This document shows, in pieces, positions 27,254-49,288 of a stretch of DNA of 64,000 bases; positions within the stretch are counted from its first letter, which is position 1, and every line of letters begins with the position of its first letter. Location of the stretch: positions 62,001 to 126,000 of the forward strand of contig NZ_JAEKJA010000026.1 in NCBI RefSeq assembly GCF_016411865.1. The letters run 5' to 3'. The translations under genes and the position numbers were made by a program. The DNA comes from Acuticoccus mangrovi (GTDB taxonomy: Bacteria; Pseudomonadota; Alphaproteobacteria; Rhizobiales; Amorphaceae). The notes under the pieces are model-generated. The model worked only from the letters and a program-made list of their open reading frames with translations, searched no databases and had not been told where the DNA came from.

Positions 27254-27270
27254 GGGAGCCTCCTTCTGTT

Positions 27271-28996: not shown

Positions 28997-28998
28997 GG

Positions 28999-31268: not shown

Positions 31269-31904
31269 TCAGCCGGCGTTGCGCTGCCGCCACGCCTCGA
31301 GCTGGCCGAGCACCGTCTCGAGGTTCGACACGTCCACGTAGCGGCGGCCGATGTCGCGCAGATTGTCGTTGTGCGGCCCTTCCTCGATGTCGCCGACGCA
31401 GTCCTCCGGCACGATGGTGCGATAGCGGTAGGAGAAGGAATCGATGGCGCTCGCCCGGATGCAGCCGGATGTGTTGCAGCCGGTGATGATCACCGTGTCG
31501 ACCCGCTCCTTGGTGAAGTAGTCGCTCACCCCGGTGTTGAAGAAGATCGACGGTCCCTTCTTGCAGACGACGAGGTCGTAGCCCTCCTGATAGATGCGCG
31601 GGTCGAGGGCGATGCTCGGATGATCGTCACGGAAGGTCTCGCGCACGGCGGTGATCTTCCAGTAGGGCATCTCCCGCTCGTTCATGTAGGAGGTGTAGCA
31701 GGCGGCGACCGGCACGTTGTAGCGCCGCGCCACCTCCAGGAGCTTGGCGGTGTTGTCGACCGCCCGCGTCACGAGCGGGGCCCCGCCGAGGGGATATTGC
31801 GGGTCGGTGAAGCCGATCTGAAAGTCCACCACGACGATGCCGGGCTTCTCGCCGAAGCCCACCGCGATCTCACCGTAGCTTCTGTTGGAATAGTCGTCGC
31901 TCAT
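31269..31904 (-). CDS. Isochorismatase-like cysteine hydrolase, N-carbamoylsarcosine amidase type
   Basis: 211 residues. Isochorismatase-fold triad: Asp27 in VVVDFQIGFTD, a lysine in VVCKKGPSIF (about 115-116) and nucleophile Cys148 in GCNTSGCIRAS. The FTDPxxPLGG segment and the TSGCIRAS motif are those of N-carbamoylsarcosine amidohydrolase, which releases ammonia and CO2 from a carbamoyl amine; RutB ureidoacrylate amidohydrolase belongs to the same superfamily but has a different active-site signature. Start set at ATG 31904 (MSDDYSNRSYG); the open frame extends upstream without homology. Divergent from the Liv-type operon, so a shared substrate is likely. Confidence 0.82.
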   Translation of the reverse strand: MSDDYSNRSYGEIAVGFGEKPGIVVVDFQIGFTDPQYPLGGAPLVTRAVDNTAKLLEVARRYNVPVAACYTSYMNEREMPYWKITAVRETFRDDHPSIALDPRIYQEGYDLVVCKKGPSIFFNTGVSDYFTKERVDTVIITGCNTSGCIRASAIDSFSYRYRTIVPEDCVGDIEEGPHNDNLRDIGRRYVDVSNLETVLGQLEAWRQRNAG

Positions 31905-32097
31905 CTCGGCTCCATGGCTATAGGGGATGACAGTTGCGCCAGCACCTAAGGCGCATCGGTGATGCGCTGCAACATCGATGCGGCCCCCGCGATGCCGCAA
32001 TGCGCACCATGCCGAAGAATGATGCTTGAAACTTCAGCCCATTGATCGTCTGTTGCCCCGATCGACAACGGATCATCCTGGAGGTGGCGGCCGAGCG

Positions 32098-32862
32098 ATG
32101 TTGGAGGTGAGCGGCCTGACTGTGCGCTACGGCGCCTTCCGCGCGGTCGACGACCTCGCGCTTCACGTCCCCGCCGGACGTCTCACCGCGGTGATCGGGC
32201 CCAACGGCGCCGGCAAGACCACCTTCTTCAATGCCGTCTCGGGCCTGGTGCGCCCGGCCGCCGGACGCATCCTCTTCGACGGGGCGGATCTCGCCGGTCG
32301 CCGGCCCGACGAGATCACCGCCGCGGGCCTCGTCCGCACCTTCCAAATCGCCCGCGGCTTTCCCCGCCTCACCGTGTTCGAGCATCTGATGCTCTACGCC
32401 CAAGACAACCCCGGCGAGGGGCTGTGGGCCGCCCTCACCGGGGCGCGGAGGCGCGAGGCGGAGATCGCCGAGCGGGCGCTCGCCGTCGCCGCGCGGCTGA
32501 AGCTTACCCGCGTGCTCGACAACCGGGTGACCGACATCTCGGGCGGCCAGAAGAAGCTCCTCGAGATCGGGCGCGGGTTGATGGCCGAGCCGCGCCTCCT
32601 CCTCCTCGACGAGCCGGTCGCCGGCGTGAACCCGACGCTCGCCGAGGAGATCGGTGACCAGCTCGTGGCACTGGTCGCGGGCGGGCTGACGCTCCTCCTC
32701 ATCGAGCACGACATGGCGCTGGTGGAGCGCATCGCCGACCACGTGATCGTGATGGCGGAAGGACGGCGCCTCGCCGAGGGTTCGTTCGCCGAGATCCGCG
32801 ACGATCACGCCGTCCAGGAGGCCTATCTCGGTGGAGGGGTGCTCGCCGATGCTGACGGTTGA
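32098..32862 (+). CDS. livG: Branched-chain-type ABC transporter ATPase LivG
   Basis: 254 residues. Walker A GPNGAGKTT, the LivG-specific TFQIARGFPRLTVFEHL segment, signature ISGGQKKLLEIGRG and Walker B LLLLDEPVAGVNP are present, with the long insert typical of LivG. Hydrolyses ATP with LivF. ATG 32098 begins the domain; an upstream in-frame ATG at 32026 is in non-homologous sequence. First gene of livG-livF-SBP-livH-livM-GAF. The substrate is probably not leucine, since the flanking genes are carbamoyl- and amide-hydrolysing enzymes. Confidence 0.92.
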   Translation: MLEVSGLTVRYGAFRAVDDLALHVPAGRLTAVIGPNGAGKTTFFNAVSGLVRPAAGRILFDGADLAGRRPDEITAAGLVRTFQIARGFPRLTVFEHLMLYAQDNPGEGLWAALTGARRREAEIAERALAVAARLKLTRVLDNRVTDISGGQKKLLEIGRGLMAEPRLLLLDEPVAGVNPTLAEEIGDQLVALVAGGLTLLLIEHDMALVERIADHVIVMAEGRRLAEGSFAEIRDDHAVQEAYLGGGVLADADG

Positions 32863-33556
32863 GGGGCTCGTCGGCGGCTACGGCGCGGCCGACGAGGTGG
32901 TGAAGGGCGTGGGCCTCACGGTGGCTCCGGGCGAGATCCTCACCGTGATCGGACCCAACGGGGCCGGCAAGTCGACCGCGCTGAAGCTCGTCTCCGGGCT
33001 TCTGCGGTGCAAGGCGGGCTCGGTGAGGCTCGGCGAGAGCGACCTGTCGAGCCTCGACCCGCAGGGCCGCGCCCGCGAGGGCCTGGTGTTCGTGCCGCAG
33101 GAGCGCAACGTCTTCGGCGCGCTCACCATCGCGGAGAATCTCGACATCGGCGCCTATCTGGAGCCGGCCCGCTCGCACGAGCGGGCGCGGGACGTCTACG
33201 CCCGCTTTCCCCTCCTTGCCGAGCGGCGCGGCAAGGCCGCCGGCGCCCTCTCGGGCGGCCAGCGCCAAACGCTCGCGATGGCGATCGCGCTGATGGCCTC
33301 GCCCCGCGTCCTCCTGCTCGACGAGCCGACGGCGGCGCTCGCGCCGAAGCCCGCGGCGGAGATCTTCAAGGCGATCCGGGGCCTTGCCGACGAGGGCATC
33401 GCCATCCTGATGGTGGAGCAGAACGCGCTTGCGGCGCTCGCCATGTCCGATCGCGCCCTCGTGATGGTGGACGGGCGGGTCGCGATGGACGGCGAGGCGC
33501 AGGCGATGCGGCAGGACCCCGAGGTCCGCCGCGCATTTTTGGGCGGGCGCGCATGA
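32849..33556 (+). CDS. livF: Branched-chain-type ABC transporter ATPase LivF
   Basis: 235 residues. Walker A GPNGAGKST, FVPQERNVFGALTIAENL (LivF-type Q-loop), LSGGQRQTLAMA, Walker B LLLDEPTAALAPK. Overlaps livG by 14 bases; ATG 32849 has GGAGGGG 7-12 bases upstream, favoured over the GTG at 32831. Second ATPase of the importer. Confidence 0.92.
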   Translation: MLTVEGLVGGYGAADEVVKGVGLTVAPGEILTVIGPNGAGKSTALKLVSGLLRCKAGSVRLGESDLSSLDPQGRAREGLVFVPQERNVFGALTIAENLDIGAYLEPARSHERARDVYARFPLLAERRGKAAGALSGGQRQTLAMAIALMASPRVLLLDEPTAALAPKPAAEIFKAIRGLADEGIAILMVEQNALAALAMSDRALVMVDGRVAMDGEAQAMRQDPEVRRAFLGGRA

Positions 33557-33584
33557 CGCGCCGTCCGACGAAGGGGAGACGAGC

Positions 33585-34799
33585 ATGACAAAGCTACTGA
33601 CGAACGGCATCAACCGCCGCACGCTGATGAAAGGGACGGCGGCCGCCGGTCTCTTCACCCTGGCCGCCCCCGCCATCGTGCGGGCGCAGTCGGAGGTGAT
33701 CCGCCTCGGCACGCTGACGCCGCTGACCGGCGCCGGCGGCCCCTACGGCCCGGTGATGGCCGAGGCCGCCAAGAAGGTCGCCGAGACGGTCAACGCCAAG
33801 GGCGGCATCCTCGGCCGCGAGATCACCGTGATCTCGGAGGACGACCAGACCAACCCCGAAGCCGGCGTGCGCGCCGCCCGCAAGCTGATCGACGTCGACG
33901 ACGTCGCCGCCATCATGGGCACCTGGGCTTCCTCGGTGACAACGGCGGTGGCGCCGCTCTGCTGGGAGGGGGAGACCTTCCTCACCACCGTGTCGGGCGC
34001 CGATTCCATCACCGAGCTGCCACACCATGGCTGGCTGGTGCGCACCCAGCCCAACACCACGCTGCAGGGCCGCAAGTTCGGCGAGTTCTGCATCGAGCTC
34101 GACGCGCCGAAGGTGTACTTCATGTCGCCGCAGACGCCGTTCGCCGACAGCCAGTTCTCGAGCCTCAAGACGGCCGTGGAGGCCGGCGGCGGGTCGGCCG
34201 AGATCCTGATCTACGACGACAAGAAGGCCTCGCTGCGCTCCGAGGTCGACACCGCTCTGCGCACGAACCCCGACATGATCGTGATGGGCGGCTACACCCC
34301 CGACACCATCGTGCTCCTGAAGGACCTCTACCGGGCCGGCTACGACGGCAAGCTCCTCGGCTTCGGCTATTCGGTGAACGCCAAGCTCGTCGAGGCGATG
34401 CCGGCCGAGGCGGTGGAAGGGGTCTACACGCTGTCGCCCTCGCCGGCGGAAGGCTCCAAGGGCTACGACGCGCTCACCAAGCTGATCGGCGTCGAGGCGC
34501 CCGACACCTACACCTGCCAGGTCTACGACCACGCCAACCTCGTCATCCTGTCGATGGCGGCGGGCGGGGCGGCGACCGGCGCGACCGTGCGCGAGACGAT
34601 CCGCACCGTGGCGCAGGGCGAGGGCGAGGCCGTGTCGACGGCGCTCGACGGTCTCGCCGCCCTCGAGGCGGGTTCGGCAATCAACTACACCGGCGCCTCC
34701 GGCCCCTGCGACTTCACGGAAAAGGGCGACATCACCGACGCCAAGTTCCGCTACGACCAGGTGAAGGACGGCAAGATCACGCTCCTGAAGATCGCATGA
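33585..34799 (+). CDS. ABC transporter substrate-binding protein, Leu/amide (Peripla_BP_6) type
   Basis: 404 residues. A twin-arginine-like leader (NRRTLMKGTAAAGLF, signal ending near residue 35) is followed by a two-lobed type I periplasmic-binding fold: IRLGTLTPLTGAGGPYG, VNAKGGILGREI, EDDQTNPEAGVRAARKLI, MGTWASSVTTAVAPLC. Group includes Leu/Ile/Val-, amide- and urea-binding proteins. Delivers ligand to LivHM. Placement beside amidase, DCase and carbamoylase genes suggests a carbamoylated amino acid, hydantoin, amide or pyrimidine; this is inference. GGGGAGACGAGC precedes the ATG. Confidence 0.9.
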   Translation: MTKLLTNGINRRTLMKGTAAAGLFTLAAPAIVRAQSEVIRLGTLTPLTGAGGPYGPVMAEAAKKVAETVNAKGGILGREITVISEDDQTNPEAGVRAARKLIDVDDVAAIMGTWASSVTTAVAPLCWEGETFLTTVSGADSITELPHHGWLVRTQPNTTLQGRKFGEFCIELDAPKVYFMSPQTPFADSQFSSLKTAVEAGGGSAEILIYDDKKASLRSEVDTALRTNPDMIVMGGYTPDTIVLLKDLYRAGYDGKLLGFGYSVNAKLVEAMPAEAVEGVYTLSPSPAEGSKGYDALTKLIGVEAPDTYTCQVYDHANLVILSMAAGGAATGATVRETIRTVAQGEGEAVSTALDGLAALEAGSAINYTGASGPCDFTEKGDITDAKFRYDQVKDGKITLLKIA

Positions 34800-35665
34800 T
34801 CTTCGAGGTCCTGCCGCAGGCGCTCGCCAACGGGCTCGTGTCCGGCACCATTCTCGCGGTGCCGGCCATCGGCTTCACGGCGATCTTCGCGATCCGCCTC
34901 TACCCCAACTTCATGATCGGCGCCGTCGCCACCGTCGGCGCCTATGCGGGGTGGGCCGCCAACACCTCGCTCGGCCTCTCGCTGTGGCCGGCGCTGGTGG
35001 TGGCGTTTCTGGTCGCGGCCGCGGTGGGCCTCGCCACCGAGAAGGTCGCGGTGCGGCCGCTCGAACCGGCCGGGCCGCTGACGATGGCGATCGCGTCGCT
35101 CGCGATGGCCATCGTGCTCGAGAACGTGATCCGCTTCATCTACGGCAACGACCTCAAGGGCTTCGACACCCCGCTCGAGCGCGACGTGGTGTGGTGGGGG
35201 ATCCGCGTCGGCCCGCAGCAGTTGCGCAATCTCGCGACCGCGCTCGCCATCATGGCGCTCCTCTGGGCCGGGCTGCGCTTCACCCGCTTCGGCCGGGCGA
35301 TGCGAGCCTGCGCCGACAATCCGGACCTTGCCCGGCTGAAGGGCATCGAGCCGGTGCGCATCGCCGACGTGACGGTGGCGGTGGCGCTCGGCCTCTGCGG
35401 CATCGGCGGCATGCTCGTCGGCGTCGACGCCTCGGTCGACCCGATGACGGGGACGCGGCTTCTCCTTTCCGTCTTCGCCGCGGCCGTGCTCGGCGGGCTC
35501 GGCTCCATTCCGGGGGCGGTGGTGGGGGCGCTCTCCATCGGCATCGTGGAGGAGCTCACCGTCGCCTTCCTGTCGCCCGCCTATCGACTCGCGGTGGGCT
35601 TCCTGGTGATCCTGGTGGTGCTGACCTTCCGCCCGCGCGGCCTCCTCGGCACAGCGACACGGTAG
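34796..35665 (+). CDS. livH: Branched-chain-type ABC permease LivH
   Basis: 289 residues, about eight helices, with LivH segments FRLYPNF-like AIRLYPNFMIGAVATVGAY and ARLKGIEPVRIADVTVAVA. Forms the inner-membrane channel with LivM. Its ATG overlaps the binding-protein stop (ATGA). The AVLGGLGSIPGAVVGAL coupling segment is intact. Confidence 0.92.
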   Translation: MIFEVLPQALANGLVSGTILAVPAIGFTAIFAIRLYPNFMIGAVATVGAYAGWAANTSLGLSLWPALVVAFLVAAAVGLATEKVAVRPLEPAGPLTMAIASLAMAIVLENVIRFIYGNDLKGFDTPLERDVVWWGIRVGPQQLRNLATALAIMALLWAGLRFTRFGRAMRACADNPDLARLKGIEPVRIADVTVAVALGLCGIGGMLVGVDASVDPMTGTRLLLSVFAAAVLGGLGSIPGAVVGALSIGIVEELTVAFLSPAYRLAVGFLVILVVLTFRPRGLLGTATR

Positions 35666-35669
35666 CGCC

Positions 35670-36572
35670 ATGGCCACCTACATCGTCTTCATCCTGGCGA
35701 TCGCCGCCGTCTACGCTCTCCTGGCGCAGAGCCTCGTGCTCGTCTGGGGGCAGTCGGGGATGGTCAATCTCGGCCTCGTCGGCTTCTTCGCCATTGGAGC
35801 CTACGCCTCCGCGCTCGTCACCACCGACCTCGCGGCGCCGGTGGTGATCGGTCTCGTCTGCGCTCTCGTCGCCGGCGCGCTGGTGGGGCTCGCCGTCACC
35901 CTTTCCACGCTGCGCCTCAGGGACGACTATCTCGCCATCGTCACCCTGGGCTTTGCGGAGGTGGTGCGCATCGTCGCCTCCAACGAGATCTGGCTCACCA
36001 ACGGCACCGACGGCATCGCCGGCATCCCGAGCCTCTTCGACCGCAGCGGCGGCCTGTGGTTCCACGTGAAGTTCGCGGTGGCGGCGACGCTCGTCTGCCT
36101 CCTCGCCGGCATCCTGATCTCCCGTCTCTCCCGTTCGCCGTGGGGGCGCGTGCTGCGGGCGATCCGCGACGATCAGGTGGTGGCGGCCGTCGCCGGCAAG
36201 CGCGTCGTGCGCTACAAGGCCGAGGCGTTCATGATCGGCAGCGCCATCGCCGCGCTCGCCGGCGCCCTCTACGGCTCCTACATCTCCTACATCGCCCCCG
36301 ATCTCTTCCAGCCGCTCATCACGATCTACGTGTTCCTCGCCGCGACGGCGGGCGGCAACAGCCGCGCGATCGGGGCGACGATCGGCGCCTATCTCCTCGT
36401 CGCATGGCTCGAGGCCAGTCGCTTCCTGGGCGAAATCGTGCCGGGTGTGTCCGCGGTACAGGTGGCGGCCTTGAGGGAAATCACAGTAGGACTAGCACTC
36501 GTCCTGGTGCTGAGATTCGCGCCGGGTGGGCTGTTCCGCGAGAAGAACGAGAAGGCGCCCCATGCAAACTGA
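35670..36572 (+). CDS. livM: Branched-chain-type ABC permease LivM
   Basis: 300 residues, about eight helices; LSTLRLRDDYLAIVTLGFAE and the coupling segment RAIRDDQVVAAVAGKRV are LivM hallmarks. Starts 4 bases after livH and ends 11 bases inside the GAF-domain gene. Confidence 0.92.
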   Translation: MATYIVFILAIAAVYALLAQSLVLVWGQSGMVNLGLVGFFAIGAYASALVTTDLAAPVVIGLVCALVAGALVGLAVTLSTLRLRDDYLAIVTLGFAEVVRIVASNEIWLTNGTDGIAGIPSLFDRSGGLWFHVKFAVAATLVCLLAGILISRLSRSPWGRVLRAIRDDQVVAAVAGKRVVRYKAEAFMIGSAIAALAGALYGSYISYIAPDLFQPLITIYVFLAATAGGNSRAIGATIGAYLLVAWLEASRFLGEIVPGVSAVQVAALREITVGLALVLVLRFAPGGLFREKNEKAPHAN

Positions 36573-37068
36573 CTTCGACATCCTTGCCGCCCTCGACACG
36601 GTGGCGACCAGTCTGGCCGAGGGAGCGGATCGCTACGCCGTCTATCGCGCCGTGCAGGATGCGACGAACCGCCTGATCGGCCACCGCCTCTTCACCCTCC
36701 TCGTGGTGCTGCCGGGCGGGGAGGAGGTCCAGCGCTTCTATTCCTCCAACGAGGCCGCCTATCCGGTCTCCGGTGTCAAGCGGGTGGGACCGACCCCCTG
36801 GGGCGAGGTGGTGCTGAAGGGCAAGAAGTCCTATCTCGGGCCCGATCTCGCCGCGATCCGCTGGGCCTTCGCCGACCACGAGCTGATCGCGAGCCTCGGC
36901 CTCGGCGCCGTCATCAACATTCCGATCCTGCACCACGGCACGCTGCTCGGGACGATGAACATCCTCAACGCGGAAGGCCATTTCCGCGACCTCGACGTGA
37001 AGGTCGCCGCCCGCTTCGCGCCCTACCTCGTTCCCGGCTTCCACGAGGAGATCGCCCGGCTGGGCTGA
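36562..37068 (+). CDS. Stand-alone GAF-domain protein in the Liv-type operon
   Basis: 168 residues consisting almost entirely of one GAF domain (about residues 10-155), with LTFLLVVLPGGEEVQRFYSSN-like core and the C-terminal GAVINIPILHHGTLLGTMNI strand region. No output domain is attached, so it is probably a soluble small-molecule binding protein acting on a partner. It starts inside livM (11-base overlap), so it is made with the transporter; a role in sensing the imported compound or a pathway intermediate is an inference. ATG 36562 begins the domain. Confidence 0.8.
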   Translation: MQTDFDILAALDTVATSLAEGADRYAVYRAVQDATNRLIGHRLFTLLVVLPGGEEVQRFYSSNEAAYPVSGVKRVGPTPWGEVVLKGKKSYLGPDLAAIRWAFADHELIASLGLGAVINIPILHHGTLLGTMNILNAEGHFRDLDVKVAARFAPYLVPGFHEEIARLG

Positions 37069-37148
37069 CGGGGCCTTGCAACCGACGCGTTCGGCCGCGA
37101 TACCGAGGGAAACGCCCCGCCATTGCTGCGATGCGATGAGGAGACGTC

Positions 37149-38972
37149 GTGAGCCTGCCGCCGGACTCGATCCTCTCCGACATCGGCGCTTTGTCGGCGC
37201 TGTCGCCGGCGATGCGCGGCGCCGTCGCCGCCCGCATGGAGCGGCACGTGCTGACGCGCGGGGAACGGCTGATCACGGCGGGTGAGGCCGCCGACGCGCT
37301 CTATATCGTCGCCCGCGGCCGCTTTCAGGTGATGGTCGATCATGGGCGGCGGGTGATCGCCGAGATCGGCACGGGCGAGCCCGTCGGCGAGATCGCCTTC
37401 TTCGCCGACGTGCGCCGCACCGCCGACGTCGTCGCCGCGCGCGACAGCGAGGTGTTGAGCCTCTCGCGTGCCGACTACGACGCTCTGGTGCACGAGGTGC
37501 CGGAGATCGCCCAGGCGGTGCTCGCCGCGATCGCCGGGCGTCTTGCCGACGTGACGGCCGCCGCGCCCGCCCTGTCGCCGAAGCCGCCGGGTACCCTCGC
37601 CCTCTGCCCCGCCGGCGGCGGCGGTGCGGTCCCCGATGCGGTGCGGGCGGCTCTCGTCGCCGCTCTCGCCGAGGTCGGCGGCGTGACGGCGATCGGCCGG
37701 GACGATCTTCCCGCTGGCATCGACCGCGACGACGAGGGTGCCATCGGCGCCTTCCTCCAGGCGCGCGAGGGAGATGGCGCCCGCATTCTCCTGACCCTCG
37801 AGGGCGACGGCGGCCCGTTCGACCGCACCGCCTTGCGGCAGAGCGACGTGCTGCTTCTCGCCGCCCCGCTCGCCGAGGCCGGGGACGGGCCGCTACCGCC
37901 GAGCCCGCTCGAAACCTACGCGCTCGGCTTCTTCCGTCCCGCGAACCGCGCGCTCCTCCTGTGGCGGGAGCGGGCGGCGATGCCGATCGGCGGGACCCGG
38001 CACTGGCTCGCGGGGCGCCCGGTCCACCTCCACCATCATGTGGCGTGCGATCAGCCGGCGGACTTCTCGCGCCTCGCCCGCATTCTCGCCGGCCGGGCGC
38101 TCGGCATCGTCATGGCGGGAGGCGGCGCGCTCGGCTGCGCCCACCTCGGCGTGGTGCGGGCGCTCGAGGAGGACGGCGCGGTGTTCGACGTCTTCGGCGG
38201 CACCAGCGTCGGGGCGGCGATGTCGACGGGCCTCGCGAGCGGACTGCCGACGCAGGACGTCCTCGAAATCGCCGAGCAGATCTTCGTGGAGAACCGCGCC
38301 ATGCGGCGCTTCACCGTGCCCATCTATAGCCTCCTCGATCACCACGTCCTCGACAGCGGCATGCGCCATCACTACGGCGAGCGGCGCCTCGAAGACCTTC
38401 CGCGGACCGCCTACGCGGTGTCGGTGAGCCTCACCCACAACGAGGTGCGGGTGCATCGGCACGGCCGCGTCTGGGAGGCGGTGCGGGCGTCCTCGGCGAT
38501 CCCGGCGGTCTACCCGCCGTTCGTGACGGCGGAGGGCGAGGTGCTCGTCGACGGCGCGGTGCTCGACAACCAGCCCGTCGGCATCATGCGCGAACTGAAG
38601 GCGGGGCCCAACGTGGTGATCGGCTTCGAGGGGCAGGGCGACTGGCGCGTCGCGGCCGACTACGAGGCGCTGCCGACGCGGGCGCGGCTTGTCCGCGAGT
38701 TCGCCCTCGGCCGCCACCGGCAGACGGCCTTTCCGAAGCTCAGCGACGTACTCTTGCGCGCGATGATGATCAACAGCCACCGCGTGATGAAGCGGGCGGG
38801 GCTCGGCGAGGGGGTGCTGATCGTGCCGCCGCTCCTTGCCGGCATGGGCGTGCTCGACTGGCAGCGCGGCCGTGAGCTCGAAGAGGTCACCTACCGCCAC
38901 ACCGCCGCCCTCATCGAGGCGGCGGGAGGTTTTGCGGCGCTGCTCGCCGGGGTCGAGCCGTCTCAGGCGTAG
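37149..38972 (+). CDS. Cyclic-nucleotide-binding domain / patatin-like phospholipase (NTE-type)
   Basis: 607 residues. Residues about 15-135 form a cNMP-binding (CAP_ED) domain (GERLITAGEAADALYIVARG; GEPVGEIAFFADVRRTADV). After a variable middle, the patatin domain runs from about 318: oxyanion GGGALGCAH, nucleophile Ser353 in GTSVG and catalytic Asp468 in VDGAVLDN. This is the neuropathy-target-esterase/RssA layout; expected to hydrolyse membrane phospholipids or lysophospholipids under nucleotide control. GTG start with GATGAGGAG upstream. Its final 10 bases overlap the convergent rutA-like gene. Confidence 0.87.
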   Translation: MSLPPDSILSDIGALSALSPAMRGAVAARMERHVLTRGERLITAGEAADALYIVARGRFQVMVDHGRRVIAEIGTGEPVGEIAFFADVRRTADVVAARDSEVLSLSRADYDALVHEVPEIAQAVLAAIAGRLADVTAAAPALSPKPPGTLALCPAGGGGAVPDAVRAALVAALAEVGGVTAIGRDDLPAGIDRDDEGAIGAFLQAREGDGARILLTLEGDGGPFDRTALRQSDVLLLAAPLAEAGDGPLPPSPLETYALGFFRPANRALLLWRERAAMPIGGTRHWLAGRPVHLHHHVACDQPADFSRLARILAGRALGIVMAGGGALGCAHLGVVRALEEDGAVFDVFGGTSVGAAMSTGLASGLPTQDVLEIAEQIFVENRAMRRFTVPIYSLLDHHVLDSGMRHHYGERRLEDLPRTAYAVSVSLTHNEVRVHRHGRVWEAVRASSAIPAVYPPFVTAEGEVLVDGAVLDNQPVGIMRELKAGPNVVIGFEGQGDWRVAADYEALPTRARLVREFALGRHRQTAFPKLSDVLLRAMMINSHRVMKRAGLGEGVLIVPPLLAGMGVLDWQRGRELEEVTYRHTAALIEAAGGFAALLAGVEPSQA

Positions 38973-40042
38973 AGGTGCCGGCGGCTCTGCATCTTCGGCT
39001 GGATGTGCTCGCCGAACTGCTCCATGCCCACGATGAAGTCGTCGAAGGTGAGCATCGCGCCGGCAAGGCCCGGCGTGGCGGCGACCTCGTCGAGCATCCA
39101 CGCGACATTCTCGTAGGAGCCGATGAGCTTCAGCATCCGCGTCGGCTCCGGGTTCTCGATCTGCTTGGCGAGCTTGGCGGCGGTGGATGCGTCGGAGGCG
39201 TTGACGTCCTGTCCCGCCTGGGCGGCCTGCCAGGCGAGGGCCTCGATGTCGGTGCCCGCGCAATAGCGCTCCCACTTGGCGAAGGCCTTCTCGTCGGTCT
39301 CGTCGGCGATCACCATCAGGAGCACGAGGGCGGAGACGTCGCGGCCGGTCTCCGCCCCGGCCGCCATCAGGCGCGCCGCCACGGGGGCGATGGTGGAGGG
39401 GTCGTTGAGGCCCATCGAGCCGACGAAGTTCATGTCGCACTCCTCGGCGACGAAGCGCATGCCGCGGTCGCTCTGGCCGGCCGACAAGAGGTCGATCTTG
39501 GCGGAGGGGCGCGGGGAGAGGACGCAGTCGTCCATCTGGAAATACTCGCCCTTGAAGTTAGAGACGCCGGTGGCCCACAGCTCCTTCATGATCTTCACGT
39601 ATTCGGTGGCGTATTCGTAGCGCCGGGCGAAGTGGGCCTCGCCGGGCCACAGGCCCATCTGCTGATATTCCTTGGGCTGCCAGCCGGTCACGATGTTCAC
39701 CCCGAAGCGGCCCGGCGCGATGGAATCGATGGTGGAGGCCATGCGGGCGACGAGCGGCGGCGGCATGGTGAGAAGCCCCACCGAGGCGAACAGCTTGATG
39801 CGCCGCGTGATCGACGCGATGCCAGCCATCAGCGTAAACGATTCCAAGTTGTGCACCCAGAATTCGCTCGGGCCGGCAAACCCGCGGAACTTGATCATCG
39901 ACAGAGCGAAATCGAGTCCATAGTGCTCGGCCCGCTGAACGATGGCGCGGTTGAGATCGAATGTCGGCATTGTCTTGGGCGACGTGGTCGAAATCAGCCA
40001 ACCGCGGCTGCCGATGGGAATAAATACGCCGATCTTGGTCAT
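38963..40042 (-). CDS. RutA-like pyrimidine monooxygenase, copy 1
   Basis: 359 residues, luciferase-like flavin-dependent (group C) monooxygenase closely following RutA along its whole length: [92 protein letters not shown]. RutA uses FMNH2 and O2 to open uracil between N3 and C4 to ureidoacrylate. This copy departs more from RutA than the gene at 44239 (e.g. FRGFAGPSEFWVHN), so its substrate may be a substituted ring. No FMN reductase gene is visible nearby. Start ATG 40042; an ATG at 40069 is possible. The C-terminus overlaps the patatin gene by 10 bases. Confidence 0.85.
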   Translation of the reverse strand: MTKIGVFIPIGSRGWLISTTSPKTMPTFDLNRAIVQRAEHYGLDFALSMIKFRGFAGPSEFWVHNLESFTLMAGIASITRRIKLFASVGLLTMPPPLVARMASTIDSIAPGRFGVNIVTGWQPKEYQQMGLWPGEAHFARRYEYATEYVKIMKELWATGVSNFKGEYFQMDDCVLSPRPSAKIDLLSAGQSDRGMRFVAEECDMNFVGSMGLNDPSTIAPVAARLMAAGAETGRDVSALVLLMVIADETDEKAFAKWERYCAGTDIEALAWQAAQAGQDVNASDASTAAKLAKQIENPEPTRMLKLIGSYENVAWMLDEVAATPGLAGAMLTFDDFIVGMEQFGEHIQPKMQSRRHLYA

Positions 40043-40183
40043 CGTGCGGCTCGTTTCGCAATGTGGCACAGGCTTGACAGCGCAGTTGCCGCGGAGATGA
40101 TCGCGTGATGGTGGCGCATCCTGTCACCTCTTCCCTCTGACGTGGACGAGTTCGCGTGGGTGGGCGGGCCGGAAGGAGCCGCA

Positions 40184-41506
40184 ATGCTGCAAAACGAGTT
40201 GTCCGCCGTGGAGGCCGTCCGACTGATGCGTGGCGGGCAGATGTCCGTGAGCGAGCTCGTCGAGGCATGCCTCGCCCGCATCGCGGCGCGCGAGGAGGCC
40301 GTCGCGGCGTGGAGCTTTCTCGACCCCGATCTCGTGCGTGCCGAAGCGGCGCGGCTCGATCGACTCAACCCCGGCGCGCGCGGCCCGCTGCACGGTCTGC
40401 CCGTCGGCGTGAAGGACGTGATCTATACGAAGGACATGCCGACCGGCCACAACTCGCCGATCTACGAGAGCGACAGCCCGCGCGTCGATGCGGCGCCGGT
40501 GAAGACGCTGCGTGCGGCGGGCGCGCTGATCTTCGGCAAGACCGTCACCACCGAGTTCGCGGCGACGAGCCGGGGCGGGACGACGCGCAATCCGCACGAC
40601 CCGGAGCGCACGCCGGGCGGCTCCTCGAGCGGCTCGGCCGCCGCGGTGGCCGACAACCAGGTGCCGCTCGCCCTCGGCACGCAGACCGGCGGATCGACCA
40701 TCCGCCCCGCCTCGTTCAACGGCGTCTACGCGCTGAAGCCCACCTGGAACGTCATCAGCCGGGAGGGGCTGAAGGTCTATTCGCTCACCTGCGACACCCT
40801 CGGCCTCTACGCCCGCGCCGTCGCCGATCTCGACCTCCTCGCCGACGTCTTCCGCCTCGGCGAACCGGCGGCGCCGCGCCCCCTGGAGGGGGTGAAGATC
40901 GCCGTCTGCCGCACCCCGATGTGGGAGCGGGCCGATACCGCGACGCGCGACGCCCTCGCCCTCGGCGAAGCGCTTCTGAGGGAGGCGGGGGCGACGGTCA
41001 CCGCGCTCACCCTGCCGCCGCTCTTCTCCGGGTTGAGCGAACACCATGGCGTCGTCCTCGCCCACGAGGGCAAGAGCGCCTTCCTCAGCGAGGCGGTGTC
41101 GCATCCCGACCTCCTCCACCCCGATTTCATGGGGATGGTGGAGAACAAGGCCGGCCTCGACGCCGACCAGGTGCGCCAGGCCTACGACGTCGGCGCCCGC
41201 TGCCGCATCGTGTTCGACGAGATCGCCTCCGCCTACGACGCCGTGCTCGCCCCGAGCGTGACGGGTGAGGCGCCGCGGGGCCTCGCCTGGACGGGCGACC
41301 ACGTATTCTGCTCGATGTGGACCTTCCTGCACGTTCCCGTCGTCAACGTGCCGGGCTTTCGCGGTCAGGCCGGGATGCCGGTGGGACTGTCGCTGATCGG
41401 CGCGCGCTTCAGCGACCGTCGGCTGCTCGCCGTCGCGGACGCGGTCGGCGCGCTGTTCGCCGCTCGCGGATCGTGGGCGAGCGGTCGCGGCGCGGCGGCG
41501 GCCTAG
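40184..41506 (+). CDS. Amidase-signature family hydrolase
   Basis: 440 residues. The Ser-cisSer-Lys triad is visible: Lys77 (GVKDVI), the cis-serine region GGSSSGS (146-151) and nucleophile Ser171 (TQTGGSTIRPAS). Amidase-signature enzymes hydrolyse carboxamides (glutamyl-tRNA amides, aryl- and alkyl-amides, biuret, malonamate, allophanate); no GatB partner is present, so this is a catabolic amidase. ATG 40184 has AAGGAG 6 bases upstream; the GTG at 40142 is rejected. Divergent from rutA copy 1 and convergent, 7 bases apart, with a hydantoinase A remnant. Confidence 0.88.
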   Translation: MLQNELSAVEAVRLMRGGQMSVSELVEACLARIAAREEAVAAWSFLDPDLVRAEAARLDRLNPGARGPLHGLPVGVKDVIYTKDMPTGHNSPIYESDSPRVDAAPVKTLRAAGALIFGKTVTTEFAATSRGGTTRNPHDPERTPGGSSSGSAAAVADNQVPLALGTQTGGSTIRPASFNGVYALKPTWNVISREGLKVYSLTCDTLGLYARAVADLDLLADVFRLGEPAAPRPLEGVKIAVCRTPMWERADTATRDALALGEALLREAGATVTALTLPPLFSGLSEHHGVVLAHEGKSAFLSEAVSHPDLLHPDFMGMVENKAGLDADQVRQAYDVGARCRIVFDEIASAYDAVLAPSVTGEAPRGLAWTGDHVFCSMWTFLHVPVVNVPGFRGQAGMPVGLSLIGARFSDRRLLAVADAVGALFAARGSWASGRGAAAA

Positions 41507-41513
41507 GCGTCGC

Positions 41514-41747
41514 TCATCCGCCACGCCGCACCCTGGTGGTGGCGATGGCGGTGCCGTGGAACACGGCGCCGATCTCGGCCCGCGTCACTCCCACCGTGGC
41601 GCAGAGCTCGGCGATCCCCGTCAACATGCCCTTGGAGGGGGCGGCGGGCGTCCTCGACACCTTGTGGATCTCGGCCGCTCCGCCGTCGAGGCCGCAGTCG
41701 ACGAGGTCGGTGAAGGTGCCGCCCACGTCGATGCCGATCGCCCTCAT
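41514..41747 (-). pseudogene. Truncated hydantoinase/oxoprolinase subunit A (N-terminal 77 codons)
   Basis: The 77-residue frame has the exact HyuA N-terminus: IGIDVGGTFTDLV (ASKHA phosphate loop) and GVTRAEIGAVFHGTAIATT, the HGTTxATN-like motif, then stops. Full HyuA proteins are around 690 residues, so about 90 percent is missing; the rest is not present in any frame because the amidase gene begins 7 bases beyond the stop. It lies 9 bases after the N-carbamoyl-D-amino-acid hydrolase gene in the same direction. Most simply the relic of an ATP-dependent L-hydantoinase gene removed by a deletion; a short functional peptide is less likely. Confidence 0.8.
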
Positions 41748-41756
41748 CGGAAAGGC

Positions 41757-42677
41757 TCAGTCATAGAGCTCGGCGATCTTTCCATAGTGGTGCGGCTGGC
41801 GGTGAAGCTTGAAGTTGAAGACGTGATCGCGCAGCTCGCGGCAGCGGTCGAAGTCCACCGGGGCGCTGATCACCTCGTCCTCCAAGGTGGTGGAGAGGGC
41901 GGCGATCTCGCCGGTCGGAGCGACGATGCAGGAGTGCCCGAGGAGCATGCAGTTCTCCTCCACGCCCACCTTGCCGGCGGCGGCGGTGTAGGCGCCGTTC
42001 TGATAGGCGCCCGCCTGCATCGACAGGAGGTGGTGGAAGGAGGAGAGGTGGTCGTGCTGGGGCACCGGCGGGTTGTGCGTCGGCGTGTTGTAGCCGCCGG
42101 TGATGAGCTCGGCGCCGCTGAGCCCCATCACCCGCCACGTCTCCGGCCAGCGCCGGTCGTTGCAGATGAACATGCCCATCGGCACGTCGTCGACCTCGTA
42201 GACGGGGAAGCCGAGATCGCCGGGCTCGAAGTAGAGCTTCTCGAGGTGCTGGAAGGGGCGATAGTCCTCGTACGCGGAATGGCCGGGCAGGTGCACCTTG
42301 CGATACTTGCCGACGATGGTGCCCTTGCGGTCGACGAGGATCGAGGTGTTGAAGCGCCGCTTGGTGTTGCCCTCGACGACGAGCTCGGCGTAGCCGAGAT
42401 TGAAGCCGATGCCGAGCGCCGCGCCGAGGGCGAAGAGCGGCGCGGTGACGTCGTTGGGCATCTCGGTCTCGTAGAAGAAGTCGAGCTCCGCCTCGTCGGT
42501 GAAATACCAGCGGGGGAAGAAGGTGGTGAGGGCGAGCTCGGGAAACACCACGAAGGTGGCGCCGCGTCCGGAGGCCTCGCGCATCATCGCCATCAGCCGC
42601 GCGACCACGGCCTCCCGCGAGTCCGCGCGCTGGATCGGCCCGAGCTGGGCAACGGCAATGGTGGTCTTTCTCGACAT
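41757..42677 (-). CDS. N-carbamoyl-D-amino-acid hydrolase (D-carbamoylase)
   Basis: 306 residues, nitrilase fold, the length of the Agrobacterium D-carbamoylase. The triad is at the expected positions: Glu47 (VFPELALT), Lys127 (GKYRKVHLPG) and Cys172 (MFICNDRRWPE). Family-specific segments PRWYFTDEAELDFFYETEMP and GGYNTPTHNPPVPQHDHL are almost unaltered, so specificity for N-carbamoyl-D-amino acids (yielding the D-amino acid, CO2 and ammonia) is likely. Start at ATG 42677 (MSRKTTIAVAQ). Divergent from the Zn-dependent hydrolase; followed by the hyuA remnant. No D-hydantoinase gene is present in the window. Confidence 0.92.
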   Translation of the reverse strand: MSRKTTIAVAQLGPIQRADSREAVVARLMAMMREASGRGATFVVFPELALTTFFPRWYFTDEAELDFFYETEMPNDVTAPLFALGAALGIGFNLGYAELVVEGNTKRRFNTSILVDRKGTIVGKYRKVHLPGHSAYEDYRPFQHLEKLYFEPGDLGFPVYEVDDVPMGMFICNDRRWPETWRVMGLSGAELITGGYNTPTHNPPVPQHDHLSSFHHLLSMQAGAYQNGAYTAAAGKVGVEENCMLLGHSCIVAPTGEIAALSTTLEDEVISAPVDFDRCRELRDHVFNFKLHRQPHHYGKIAELYD

Positions 42678-42845
42678 TCTCGTCCCCGGTTTGGCGCTGG
42701 CCACGACGGAGCGGCGAGGCTCGACGCCCTGCGTCGATGAGATAGCAAGTCGGGTGCCAAGGTCGGACCCGCCCACCGGCGGCGCGCGTGCGCCGGCTGG
42801 CATTCATCCTGTATCCAAGCCGTGCACGCAGCCGCGGAGGGAACG

Positions 42846-44081
42846 TTGCCCGAGATCAAGATCGCCCCGGAATTCGTCGAACACACCATCATGGAGCTGG
42901 CGCGCTTTGGGGCCTACGCCGACACCGGCGTGTGGCGCACGGTCTATTCGCCCGAGTGGGTCGCCGCGCAGGATCTCTACGCCACCTGGTGCGCAGAGGC
43001 GGGGCTCGCCGTGTCGCGCGACGCGGTGGGCAACGTGTGGGGGCGCCTCGCAGGCAGCGAGGGCGGCGGCTCGATCGTCTCCGGCTCGCACATCGACAGC
43101 CAGCGGCCCGGCGGGCGCTATGACGGTGCGCTCGGGGCGCTCGCGGGGCTGATCGCGCTCAGGGCGCTCAAGGAGCAGTTCGGCACCCCCCGCCGCACGC
43201 TCGAGGCGGTGTCGCTGTGCGAGGAGGAGGGGAGCCGCTTTCCCTCCACCAACTTCTGGGGCTCGCGCGCCATCACCGGGCGCATCGCTCCGGACGACCC
43301 TGACAAGGTCGTCGGCTATGACGGGGAGACGATCGCCGAGGCGATGCGCGGCGTGGGGCTCGACCCGGCCGACATTCCGTCCGCCAAGCGGGACGACATC
43401 GACGTGTTCGTCGAGCTCCACATCGAGCAGGGGCCGATCCTGGAGCATGCCGACCTGCCGGTGGCGGTGGTCGACGCGATCACCGGCATCCGCCACTACG
43501 ACGTGATGCTGACGGGCGAGCAGAACCACGCCGGCGCCTTCCCGATGGATCTGCGGCGCGACCCGATGGCGGGGTTCGCCGAGATCGCGTCGGGCGTGAT
43601 CAACACCGCCCACCGCATGGGCCGCCCGGCGGTGACGACGGTGGGCCGCGTGCTCGTCGATCCCAACGGGGCCGCCGTGGTGCCGCGCTCGGTGAACTTC
43701 ACCGTCGACGCCCGCCATCCCGACCCCGCCCAGCGCGCGGTGCTCTATGCCCGGCACGAGGCGCTGATGCGCGAGGTCGCCGAGCGCCGCGGCCTCGAGA
43801 TCGCCTGGAAGCACAATATCGACCATGCCCCGTGCCTGTCCGACCCCGGCGTGGTGGCGACGCTGCAGGAGGCCGCGCGCAGCCAGGGCATTCCCTTCAT
43901 GACGATGCCGAGCGGGGCCGGCCACGACAGCCAGCAGATGGCGCGGATCGCCAAGGTCGCGATGATCTTCGTGCGCTCCAAGGACGGGCGCAGCCACACC
44001 CCGGAGGAGTTCTCCTCCATTCCCGACATCGTCGAGGGCATTCGGGTGCTGGCGGCGGGGCTGCACGCGCTCGCCTACTGA
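42846..44081 (+). CDS. Zn-dependent M20 amidohydrolase (L-carbamoylase / allantoate amidohydrolase type)
   Basis: 411 residues. The bimetal site of the M20 HyuC/AllC family is present: GSHIDSQRPGGRYDGALG, CEEEGSRF, HIEQGPILE and GAGHDSQQMA. Family members split N-carbamoyl-L-amino acids, beta-ureidopropionate or allantoate to ammonia and CO2. Start taken as TTG 42846 because GGAGGGAACG precedes it; a GTG at 42822 would add 8 residues. Shares a 168-base divergent region with the D-carbamoylase, giving a pair of opposite stereochemistry. Which N-carbamoyl compound it uses cannot be read from sequence. Confidence 0.88.
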   Translation: MPEIKIAPEFVEHTIMELARFGAYADTGVWRTVYSPEWVAAQDLYATWCAEAGLAVSRDAVGNVWGRLAGSEGGGSIVSGSHIDSQRPGGRYDGALGALAGLIALRALKEQFGTPRRTLEAVSLCEEEGSRFPSTNFWGSRAITGRIAPDDPDKVVGYDGETIAEAMRGVGLDPADIPSAKRDDIDVFVELHIEQGPILEHADLPVAVVDAITGIRHYDVMLTGEQNHAGAFPMDLRRDPMAGFAEIASGVINTAHRMGRPAVTTVGRVLVDPNGAAVVPRSVNFTVDARHPDPAQRAVLYARHEALMREVAERRGLEIAWKHNIDHAPCLSDPGVVATLQEAARSQGIPFMTMPSGAGHDSQQMARIAKVAMIFVRSKDGRSHTPEEFSSIPDIVEGIRVLAAGLHALAY

Positions 44082-44089
44082 GGCGGGAC

Positions 44090-44109
44090 GATGCGAACAG
44101 ATGCGAACA
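44090..44109. repeat. Tandem decamer upstream of rutA copy 2
   Basis: GATGCGAACA occurs twice head to tail (44090-44099, 44100-44109), 130 bases before the rutA-like ATG and just after the Zn-hydrolase stop. The one-turn spacing is what a direct-repeat operator would show; no regulator gene is adjacent. A 7-bp stem (GCCGGCC/GGCCGGC, 44181-44197) lies between it and the gene. Confidence 0.4.
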
Positions 44110-44238
44110 ATCCGATCAACGATGCACACTAATCGGGCGGGGTGTGTGGCGTCGGGCTCGCTATTCTAGCCGTGTGCCTGGCCGGCCGAGGGCCGGCGGC
44201 CGAGACGAACCTTTTGCGTGTCACTTGAGGGGCTTGCG

Positions 44239-45321
44239 ATGGATATCGGCGTCTTCATACCCATCAACAACAACGGTTGGCTCATTTCGGAAACCTCGCC
44301 ACAGTACATGCCGAGTTTCGAATTGAACAAGACCATCGTGCAGCGGGCGGAGCAGTACAACTTCGACTTCGCCCTCTCGATGATCAAGCTGCATGGCTTC
44401 GGCGGCAAGACCGAGTTCTGGGACTACGGGCTCGAGTCGTTCACGCTGATGGCGGGGCTCGCGGCGGTCACGTCGAAGATCAAGCTGTTCGCCTCCACCG
44501 CGGTGCTCACCTTGCCGCCGGCGATGGTGGCGCGGATGGCGACCACCATCGATTCCATTTCCGGCGGCCGCTTCGGCGTCAACATCGTGTCGGGCTGGCA
44601 GTCGGCCGAGTACGACCAGATGGGGCTGTGGCCCGGCGACGAGTACTTCGGCTACCGCTACGACTATTCGTCCGAATACGTGACGGTGATGAAGGAGCTG
44701 TGGGCGAGCGGGGTGTCCAACTTCAAGGGCACGCACTTCACCATGGACAACTGCACCATGAAGCCGACGCCGTCGCACCCGATCGAGATCGTGTCGGCGG
44801 GGCAGAGCAACCGGGGGCTGGAGTTCTCGGCCGAGTATGCCGACTACACCTTCGCCCTCGGCTCCGGCCTCAACACGCCGACGGCCTATGCGCCGTTCAA
44901 CGAGCGTCTGCTGGCGGCGGCGGCGAAGACCGGCCGCGACCTCGGCAGCTACGTCCTCTTCATGATCATCGCCGAAGAGACGGACGAGGAGGCGATGGCG
45001 AAGTGGACCCACTACCGCGAGGGCGCCGACGTCGACGCGCTGTCGTGGATGGCCGACCAGAGCGGCAAGGACGTGGCGGCCGAGGACGGCTCCACCGCCA
45101 AGGCCATGAACCTTCCCGAGGGCGCGGTGAACTTCAACATGGGCACCCTCGTCGGCTCCTACGCCACGGTGGCGCGGATGCTCGACGAGGTGGCCTCGGT
45201 GCCCGGCACCAAGGGCATCATGATGACGTTCGACGACTTCGTGCTCGGCATCGAGAAGTTCGGCAAGTACGTGCAGCCGCTGATGAAGACGCGGGCCGAC
45301 CGCCTGCCCGCGGCCGCCTGA
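44239..45321 (+). CDS. rutA: RutA-like pyrimidine monooxygenase, copy 2
   Basis: 360 residues. Follows RutA more closely than copy 1: [103 protein letters not shown]. Predicted FMN- and O2-dependent ring opening of uracil (or thymine) to ureidoacrylate. ATG 44239 follows TTGAGGGGC. Transcribed after the Zn-hydrolase gene. The companion genes rutB-rutG are not in the window, so reduced FMN must come from an unlinked reductase, and ureidoacrylate may be hydrolysed by one of the local carbamoyl hydrolases. Confidence 0.9.
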
Positions 45322-45419: not shown

Positions 45420-46412
45420 TCAGCTGAAGTCCTGCGCCTCGCGCTTGCGCACCAGCTGCGACAACGCCACCGCCGTCACCAGCGCACCGCCGTAGAAGAG
45501 GTTCTGCACGTAGGTCTGGATGCCGAGCATCGACAGGCCGGTGATGCCGATGACGAGGAAATAGACCGCGATCAGCGAGCCGAACGCGTTGAAGCGTCCC
45601 GGATTGATCGCCGTCGCGCCGAGGAAGGCGGCGGCGAAGGCGGGCAGCAGGAAGGTGTTGCCGGAGTTCGGATCGGCCGCCCCGATGGTCCCGACATAGA
45701 GGATGCCGGTGGTGGCGCTGATCATCCCGGAGGCGATGAAGCAGAAGAAGCGCACCCGGTCGACGCGGATGCCGGAGAGGCGCGCCACCTCCCGCCCGCG
45801 CCCCACGAAGAGCAGCCGCCGCCCCAGTGAAGTGTAGCCGAACACGTACCAGAGCACGATCGCGAGCGTCAGCGCGTAGTAGAACACCAGCGGGATGCCG
45901 AAGACACGCGTCACCACCACGTAGGTGACGAGCACCGGATCGATGCCGCTGATGGTGCTCGACCCGGAGATCCACAGCACGATGCCGTTGATGAAGGTGC
46001 CGGTGCCGAGCGTGACGATCAGCGAGTGGATGCGGAAGTAGAGGACGAACCAGGCGTTGACCATGCCGATGACGGCGCCCGCGCCGATGGCGCAGACCAT
46101 CGCCACCGGGAGCGGCACCCCCATCTGGGCGTTGAGCACGGCCACCATCATCGCCCCGAGGGTGAGGGTGGCGGCGATCGAGAGGTCGAAGTCGCCCGCC
46201 GTCAGCGGGATGATGAGGGCGAGCGTCAGGAACACCAGCACCGACTGGGAGCCGAGCATCGTGGAGATGTTGGCCCACGACAGGAAGGCGACGGGCTTCA
46301 GCGCTCCGAACACACAGAAGAGGACGACCAGCGCGAAGACCAGCGCGTAGGCCTCCGCGTGGCGCTTCCAGTTGATGGGGGCGGCGCCGGGCGTCGCGGT
46401 GGCTTCGCTCAT
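45420..46412 (-). CDS. Sugar-type ABC transporter permease (RbsC family)
   Basis: 330 residues, about nine to ten helices, BPD_transp_2 family: IIPLTAGDFDLSIAATLTLGAM, SLIVTLGTGTFINGIVLWIS, GRRLLFVGRGREVARLSGI. Acts as a homodimeric channel in the inner membrane. ATG 46412 overlaps the ATPase stop (ATGA). The start is internal to a longer open frame that is a shadow over the ATPase gene. Substrate unknown (ribose-, xylose- or nucleoside-like). Confidence 0.9.
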   Translation of the reverse strand: MSEATATPGAAPINWKRHAEAYALVFALVVLFCVFGALKPVAFLSWANISTMLGSQSVLVFLTLALIIPLTAGDFDLSIAATLTLGAMMVAVLNAQMGVPLPVAMVCAIGAGAVIGMVNAWFVLYFRIHSLIVTLGTGTFINGIVLWISGSSTISGIDPVLVTYVVVTRVFGIPLVFYYALTLAIVLWYVFGYTSLGRRLLFVGRGREVARLSGIRVDRVRFFCFIASGMISATTGILYVGTIGAADPNSGNTFLLPAFAAAFLGATAINPGRFNAFGSLIAVYFLVIGITGLSMLGIQTYVQNLFYGGALVTAVALSQLVRKREAQDFS

Positions 46413-49104: not shown

Positions 49105-49288
49105 GCGTCGAAGCTCCTGTTTCGGCCACGGGATCCGTGGCGAAGGGGATTCGCCGAGGCGGCAACGACGTGACGGCCGGTCTACTCGGCGGTGGTCCAA
49201 CGTGTCGCCACCGGGACGAGCAACCGTTGTGCCAACCGCAGAAATTCCAAATGCCGGGCGGGCCCTCGCGCGCCCGGCCGGCGGTCTC

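Follow-up and report, generated by a model that had tools for sequence, protein, structure and literature searches.

The 64,000-nucleotide stretch of the Acuticoccus mangrovi genome analysed here (contig NZ_JAEKJA010000026.1, positions 62,001 to 126,000; termed the window) contains an island, at window positions 31269-45321, in which profile searches place two RutA-type genes on either side of an amidase, a D-carbamoylase and an M20 carbamoylase. RutA1, a RutA-family flavin mononucleotide (FMN) monooxygenase (38963..40069, minus strand; TIGR03612), lies divergently to AMID, an amidase-signature hydrolase (40142..41506, plus strand; PF01425). Beyond these, the CN_hydrolase gene at 41757..42677 (minus strand) is a D-carbamoylase of the N-carbamoyl-D-amino acid amidohydrolase family by similarity to the solved structure 1erz, its start being taken from an alignment with 1fo6. 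A Zn-dependent M20 carbamoylase/allantoate-type amidohydrolase (42822..44081, plus strand; TIGR01879) is directly upstream of the second FMN monooxygenase of the RutA family, RutA2 (44218..45321, plus strand; TIGR03612), and its end is separated from the RutA2 frame, on the same strand, by 136 nt. RutA1 and RutA2 are only 4.2 kb apart and represent two of the genome's three RutA matches above cut-off. RutA2 is followed, outside the island as delimited above, by an Rbs-type ATP-binding cassette (ABC) importer (45420..49104, minus strand; permease 45420-46424, ATPase 46409-47998, binding protein 47995-49104). At the opposite edge lies a gene for an isochorismatase-fold cysteine hydrolase resembling N-carbamoylsarcosine amidase (31269..31904, minus strand; PF00857), and next to it a five-gene Liv/HAAT-type ABC importer (32098..36572, plus strand). 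The initial annotation had named the two RutA-type genes, the amidase and both carbamoylases, all of which are confirmed by family scores, as well as the isochorismatase-fold hydrolase and Liv-type genes near the RutA copies, which are present; the Rbs-type importer is a conserved neighbour that it had missed.

Both monooxygenases exceed the curated TIGR03612 RutA cut-off of 498.3 bits (RutA1, 535.6; RutA2, 633.8). RutA2 scores 553.9 bits against the solved E. coli RutA 5wan and is 65.5 to 65.7 percent identical to the RutA of E. coli records. The TIGR03612 equivalog cut-off also admits non-canonical RutA, and public records of a Thioclava plasmid (L127) and a Palleronia plasmid (L173) name such genes pyrimidine utilization protein A. 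In all, 96 RutA-like open reading frames (ORFs) were found. A 90-row tree, with E. coli RutA included, leaves out four duplicates (L057) and three short ORFs (L084, L113, L118), while a 69-row tree was built with long branches and near copies removed. The canonical clade containing E. coli RutA comprises 18 rows and is supported by Shimodaira-Hasegawa-like approximate likelihood ratio test (SH-aLRT) values of 99 in the 90-row tree and by 100/99 in the 69-row tree. RutA1 and RutA2 both fall outside it in both trees (bootstrap 100). The RutA1 group is supported in both (23 rows, 99/97 in the 69-row tree), as is a RutA2 core group (14 rows in the 90-row tree; 15 rows at 99/98 in the 69-row tree). 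L052 and L053, which have rutB-, C- or D-type neighbours, form long branches outside the canonical clade, both window groups and the Acidimicrobiia rows.

In E. coli RutA the pocket for dioxygen is reported to consist of L65, T105, N134, V136 and F224 (PMC7662398, PMC10005588). The tested changes at positions 105, 134 and 136 are reported to kill the activity, with the exception of T105S, which retains some 80 percent (PMC7662398). This numbering matches the E. coli sequence of L172 at an offset of 19. Both window copies keep the Leu, Asn, Val (V136) and Phe of the pocket and have Ser instead of Thr at site 105; N134 is present in all rows of the alignment behind the 90-row tree. Site 105 is Thr in 18/18 canonical rows and Ser in 24/27 RutA1-group rows, in 15/15 Acidimicrobiia rows and in 19/24 RutA2-group rows, the five Thr rows of the last being from Curtobacterium. 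Ser105 thus characterises most, but not all, members of the non-canonical groups. Sites 170, 204 and 305 also divide canonical from other rows under the filter used, and the substrate-side site 292 varies in every group, the canonical clade included. Because the dioxygen-pocket residues are largely retained and the T105S enzyme is reported to be about 80 percent active, the RutA chemistry is probably kept in the window copies.

The two RutA groups of the window also differ from canonical RutA in the company they keep. Genes within 10 kb per side took the name of the reference-set protein that they matched best by BLASTP (E 1e-12, 45 percent coverage and, for the counts, 33 percent identity); in unannotated loci the genes came from a home-made codon-bias caller, and the counts are rough. 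The sample is biased, in that many loci derive from a search with RutA1 and that Curtobacterium and Devosia give near copies. The window is included among both the 15 RutA1-type and the 24 RutA2-type loci, and nine loci without a called RutA over the thresholds (L066, L085, L088, L089, L090, L170, L171, L172, L177) are uncounted. At the 17 canonical loci, RutB was found 12 times, RutC 14, RutD 15, RutF seven and an amidase once, and the isochorismatase-fold type was found at none. RutB, RutC and RutD are absent from all 24 RutA2-type loci, where an amidase is present in 21, an Rbs permease in 12, an isochorismatase-fold protein in 11, RutF in five, RutE in three, an asparaginase-like protein in three and a dihydropyrimidinase-family protein in two. 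They are likewise absent from all 15 RutA1-type loci, which show an asparaginase-like protein (8), a Pot-type binding protein (8), an amidase (7), an isochorismatase-fold protein (4) and a D-carbamoylase (3). For the 15 Acidimicrobiia loci the only type listed is the isochorismatase-fold type, in six. An amidase control with slightly different filters gave 1/8 stretches of the window's own genome, 19/23 RutA2-type loci and 1/17 canonical loci; its Fisher value takes no account of relatedness. The isochorismatase-fold gene comes within 0 to 185 nt of RutA in L059, L112 and five Acidimicrobiia loci, and because of this proximity it is likely to act on the RutA product there.

Some matches fell below the identity limit and so outside these counts: in L048, L057 and L168 an isochorismatase-fold gene matches RutB best, at 30 to 31 percent, and L047 contains a RutD-like hydrolase at 25 percent. 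RutE is above its cut-off in L047, L158 and L118, and the RutF-like reductases of related clusters are just below theirs (243.8 to 247.9 bits vs 254.75). The set of L047 (genome G058) includes RutE, at 313 bits against a cut-off of 152, as well as a RutF-like reductase at 247.9 bits. On the publicly annotated Palleronia plasmid L173, genes for an isochorismatase-family protein, a malonic semialdehyde reductase, an amidase and three ABC proteins are followed by MFS, GntR, 'rutA' and two further amidase genes, and rutB, C and D are absent from the stretch shown. L048 (the same stretch as L057, from Devosia indica), L168 and L169 (same genus code) contain four, three and three tandem RutA1-type paralogues, respectively, adjoined by an asparaginase-like protein, flavin reductases and a Pot-type ABC transporter. 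On the Thioclava plasmid, a gene for a RibB-type 3,4-dihydroxy-2-butanone-4-phosphate synthase (L127, 1554-2659) is the direct neighbour of the flavin-reductase gene in a RutA2-type cluster, an arrangement that would suit flavin supply. At L158 (1904-7635), an EutA/arylmalonate decarboxylase-like protein, under both cut-offs, and a lyase with a LeuC/LeuD-like pair, named by eye, are encoded near isochorismatase-fold, RutE and RutA2 genes.

Among solved structures, the closest to the island amidase is malonamidase E2, at 207 bits (the next group reaches 133), with which its Lys-Ser-Ser motifs align; these we take to be the catalytic residues. The D-carbamoylase matches 1erz at 567 bits over 302 residues with the Glu, Lys and Cys motifs aligned, their residues being presumably catalytic. 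The M20 enzyme reaches 419.4 bits against TIGR01879 (cut-off 204) and 299 bits against the AllC structure 1z2l, and is under the cut-offs of all the narrower allantoate models shown, falling just short for NF006771 (397.4 vs 399). The best solved match of the isochorismatase-fold protein is the N-carbamoylsarcosine amidohydrolase 26st, at only 121 bits. Nineteen isochorismatase-fold proteins encoded at RutA loci cluster together, separately from RutB and eight other family members of the window's own genome (SH-aLRT 99); the window copy is a long branch inside this RutA-linked group and its placement is unsure. Asp and Cys columns, which we assume to be those of the catalytic residues of the fold, are kept in 47/48 and 45/48 rows. 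The Lys column tested lacks conservation but may be the wrong one of two adjacent residues, and no conclusion is drawn from it. The gene at 31269 was considered as a RutB and rejected, since it scores 21.4 bits against an equivalog cut-off of 377.95 and belongs to a separate group (SH-aLRT 99).

The genome is represented by 5.46 Mb in 65 contigs and is 97.4 percent complete. On the window contig (C19) no RutB, RutE, RutG or flavin reductase is among the matches listed, RutC and RutD not having been searched genome-wide. Contig C2 carries a rutB-rutC-rutD cluster (L028, 6308-11894; RutB 342 bits, cut-off 378; RutC 144, cut-off 169; RutD 250.5, cut-off 238.5) together with an Ssu/NMT1-type ABC transporter and a LysR-like regulator named by eye, and no rutA is among the called genes of the 19.5 kb read around it. 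A second RutB-like gene (282 bits) is located near the end of contig C17. The third RutA, on contig C45 (L025, 4645-11944), scores 513.9 bits in a six-frame search and 483.9, under the cut-off, with the shorter called start; a TRZ/ATZ-type deaminase and an NMT1-type ABC transporter precede it and an amidase comes directly after, forming another RutA-amidase pair. Contig C63 contains a weaker RutA relative (335 bits). Four of the 11 Flavin_Reduct matches in the genome were compared with RutF, the best reaching 193.1 bits vs the cut-off of 254.75. The best RutG score was 105.5 vs a cut-off of 758.65, under which the control E. coli genome also fell. Three D-hydantoinases are above cut-off, all on other contigs. 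As far as was searched, no complete rut operon was found elsewhere in the genome, which holds parts only.

These results modify the initial annotation in several respects. Its statement that rutB to rutG are lacking holds locally, for the families searched, but not, as regards rutB, rutC and rutD, for the genome; because of the unlinked cluster on C2, RutB is not missing from the organism. The genome search that it proposed thus returned rutB, rutC and rutD and the 11 flavin-reductase-domain matches, but no RutE. It had further suggested that the local carbamoyl hydrolases replace RutB. A replacement of RutB is plausible, because window-type loci often have amide hydrolases and no rutB, C or D, but it is the amidase and, less often, the isochorismatase-fold protein that recur instead. 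As a recurring replacement the carbamoylases make a weak candidate: at 33 percent identity or more, and with the window counted, a D-carbamoylase is found in 3/15 RutA1-type and 1/24 RutA2-type loci, and an L-carbamoylase in the window only. Relatives of the D-carbamoylase do occur beside RutA in L055 (58 percent) and L058 (36 percent), and a distant CN_hydrolase adjoins RutA in four Curtobacterium loci, which favours the carbamoyl-hydrolase idea, but at 25 to 27 percent it is below the limit and uncounted. Of the two findings that were to count against the idea together, a complete rut operon elsewhere and a lack of conserved co-occurrence with carbamoyl hydrolases, the former was not found as far as the searches reached, but the co-occurrence is weak.

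Among the components of the Rbs importer, the binding protein was assigned by a weak match; the permeases of L047 and L157 are 76 and 80 percent identical to that of the window. The Liv-type importer consists of two ATPases (32098-32862 and 32831-33556), a binding protein (33585-34799) and two permeases (34796-35665 and 35670-36572), all on the plus strand, the first ATPase and the binding protein being assigned by family and the others by reading. Liv-like genes (35 to 37 percent) also occur 7 to 9 kb from RutA2 in L108; this importer was not among the neighbour types scored in the locus counts. The closest solved structures of the Rbs and Liv binding proteins point to no clear substrate.

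Sites resembling the -24/-12 promoter of sigma-54 precede the Rbs importer and the D-carbamoylase. One (49219..49234, minus strand) is free of mismatches and sits some 115 nt before the gene for the Rbs binding protein; the other (42744..42759, minus strand) has one mismatch and lies about 67 nt upstream of the D-carbamoylase gene. The window as a whole contains three sites with at most one mismatch vs 0.49 expected, and at least three were seen in 2/100 shuffles. The third (6581-6596, one mismatch) is remote from the island, 62 nt before an unnamed gene at 5497-6519. In L047 such sites precede both RutA2 and RbsB, and in L159 RbsB. Across 16 chosen loci, a site is present in 5/97 upstream regions of cluster genes vs 2/180 others; with 200 shuffled motifs, the cluster-gene regions yielded 0.11 sites on average and never more than 2, and with altered spacings 0 or 1. 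The promoter-like sites fit nitrogen control without proving it. Two further candidates were left unused: a site before the amidase (40064-40079), with two mismatches, and an NtrC-like palindrome upstream of two of the sigma-54-like sites, matching only with two to three mismatches.

From the gene content, the clade, the recurring neighbours, the pocket residues (Thr105 to Ser) and the promoter-like matches, we infer a reaction, an order of steps, a substrate class, a replacement for RutB and a mode of regulation. The reading that we favour, with a probability of roughly 0.5, is that of a nitrogen-regulated catabolic module built around two non-canonical RutA enzymes, with the amidase and/or the isochorismatase-fold hydrolase most likely standing in for RutB. 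A uracil-like N-heterocycle would be imported by the Rbs-type, and perhaps also the Liv-type, importer. RutA1 or RutA2, provided with FMNH2 by an unlinked flavin reductase, would cleave a ring amide with O2, as RutA does at uracil N3-C4. Hydrolysis of the ensuing ureido or amide acid would fall not to RutB but to the amidase-signature enzyme and/or the isochorismatase-fold hydrolase. The D- and L-carbamoylases would be local additions and possible participants, and sigma-54 would drive the importer and the D-carbamoylase. A uracil-like, or pyrimidine-like, ring is the favoured substrate because RutE and RutF-like genes recur in some related clusters, which would suit a malonic semialdehyde product; RutE with the RutF-like reductase in L047 provides the strongest hint of this product and of such a ring. 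Biuret offers a precedent for such a replacement: its hydrolysis is the work of the amidase AtzE in one pathway and of an isochorismatase-fold enzyme in a different one (PMC5806882).

It may be that this module exemplifies a second widespread RutA-dependent ring-opening pathway, existing beside Rut in Alphaproteobacteria and Actinomycetota, with a malonamidase-like amidase and an N-carbamoylsarcosine-amidase-like hydrolase at the ureido/amide cleavage step, Rbs-type import in part of the clusters and sigma-54 nitrogen control. We put forward this broader proposal tentatively, at a little below even odds; under it the window would unite both RutA groups and add two carbamoylases. No description of such a cluster was found in open-licence PubMed Central papers, among the matches listed.

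Several observations weigh against a module of this kind. Some loci of the window groups are without a recognised partner within 10 kb, and the wide RutA2 group (24 rows) is supported, at 95, in the quick 90-row tree only. The isochorismatase-fold gene of the window has diverged, reaching 36 percent with its nearest relative, and RutA1 is 7 kb away from it. A flavin reductase linked to the island was not found, all 11 genome matches being off contig C19. RutE occurs in just 3/24 RutA2-type loci and is without a match at E 0.001 in the window's own 97.4 percent complete genome. The five sigma-54-like sites before cluster genes derive from 3/16 loci (the window, L047 and L159), and the other 13 have none there. 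Lastly, rutB, rutC and rutD on C2 could process the product of RutA.

This last point leads to the alternative of an ordinary Rut pathway that is split, whereby the island RutA would make ureidoacrylate from uracil, the unlinked RutB, RutC and RutD would complete the route and the nearby hydrolases would be unrelated nitrogen scavengers. The three C2 genes are clustered with an Ssu/NMT1-type transporter and RutA2 is close to E. coli RutA in sequence, both of which are in keeping with it. We nevertheless consider it unlikely, given that rutB, C and D are beside RutA in none of the 24 and 15 loci of the window groups, where amidases are common, that RutE is lacking from the genome and that the C2 RutB and RutC are under their cut-offs. 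About equally unlikely is that RutA acts on a non-pyrimidine ring, such as an imide, a lactam, a hydantoin or a malonyl ureide, in a pathway that only resembles Rut. Diversified substrates are suggested by the three to four tandem RutA paralogues of L048, L168 and L169, and the kinship of the amidase to malonamidase E2, the asparaginase-like neighbours in 8/15 RutA1-type loci and the dihydropyrimidinase-family protein in 2/24 RutA2-type loci point the same way. However, RutE, in three of the RutA2-type loci and in L118, fits malonic semialdehyde formed from a pyrimidine, and the dioxygen pocket is mostly kept, though the substrate-side site 292 varies, even in the canonical clade. The initial annotation had raised a role for the RutA copies on hydantoins, and this finds no direct support: hydantoins are opened by hydrolysis, without an oxygenase, and the three D-hydantoinases are on other contigs.

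Those hydantoinases are more pertinent to the carbamoylases, which may belong to a hydantoin pathway whose ring-opening enzymes are encoded elsewhere and stand beside RutA by chance. This is a real possibility, if somewhat short of probable; it is compatible with the other readings, and its odds do not add to theirs. The rarity of both carbamoylases at RutA loci speaks for it. On the other hand, 136 nt separate the L-carbamoylase gene from the co-oriented RutA2 frame downstream of it, the D-carbamoylase gene has a sigma-54-like site, as the importer has, and D-carbamoylase relatives adjoin RutA in L055, in L058 and, more distantly, in four Curtobacterium loci.

The module that we favour shares features with several known systems. 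Like the E. coli Rut pathway (rutABCDEFG), it has a RutA-family monooxygenase above cut-off with most of the pocket residues, and RutE- and RutF-like genes occur in some related clusters; unlike it, the RutA groups of the window are without adjacent rutB, C and D and have Ser for Thr105, and window-type loci contain an amidase, an isochorismatase-fold hydrolase and an ABC importer instead. In biuret catabolism (AtzE or BiuH), amidase-signature and isochorismatase-fold enzymes are likewise alternative ureide hydrolases (PMC5806882), but the island has an oxygenase rather than a hydrolytic ring opener, and no cyanuric acid hydrolase is among its annotated genes. The D-carbamoylase-type and M20 carbamoylase-type hydrolases recall hydantoin utilisation, but the island contig is without a hydantoinase above cut-off and two RutA enzymes are present. 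Finally, the creatinine/N-methylhydantoin pathway is brought to mind by the isochorismatase-fold protein, which is closest to N-carbamoylsarcosine amidohydrolase among solved structures, although the similarity is low, at 121 bits.

The RutA family was detected in 9/150 relatives at E 1e-80, and the RutA2 protein, at E 1e-90, in 10/385 genomes of the class and 21/397 of the order, the window's own genome being counted in each case. Among seven congeners, the patatin gene of the island gave no match at E 1e-100, and the amidase, at E 1e-80, gave matches of 42 to 46 percent only, in three. The island looks accessory in its genus. The non-canonical pattern occurs in Hyphomicrobiales, Rhodobacterales, Sphingomonadales and Curtobacterium. 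If our reading is correct, many genes labelled rutA would serve a pathway other than the one for which they are named, and the natural substrate range of RutA flavin-N5 chemistry would still be open. The gene neighbourhood hints at an undescribed bacterial route to nitrogen from ring compounds, and the recurring set of RutA, amidase, isochorismatase-fold hydrolase and Rbs importer makes a short enzyme list for defined ring amides.

The remaining genes of the region have at most a putative tie to the pathway. Between the Liv-type importer and RutA1 are encoded a GAF-domain protein (36526..37068, plus strand; PF13185, PF01590) and the cNMP-binding/patatin protein (37149..38972, plus strand; PF00027, PF01734). 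Beside the Rbs importer are genes for an MsnO8-family flavin monooxygenase (49289-50287) and an aminotransferase of the glutamate-1-semialdehyde aminomutase group (50464-51753). A sulfate-type ABC importer occupies window positions 26126-30048, its binding protein (28999-30048) being recognised at 478 bits and its other genes by eye.

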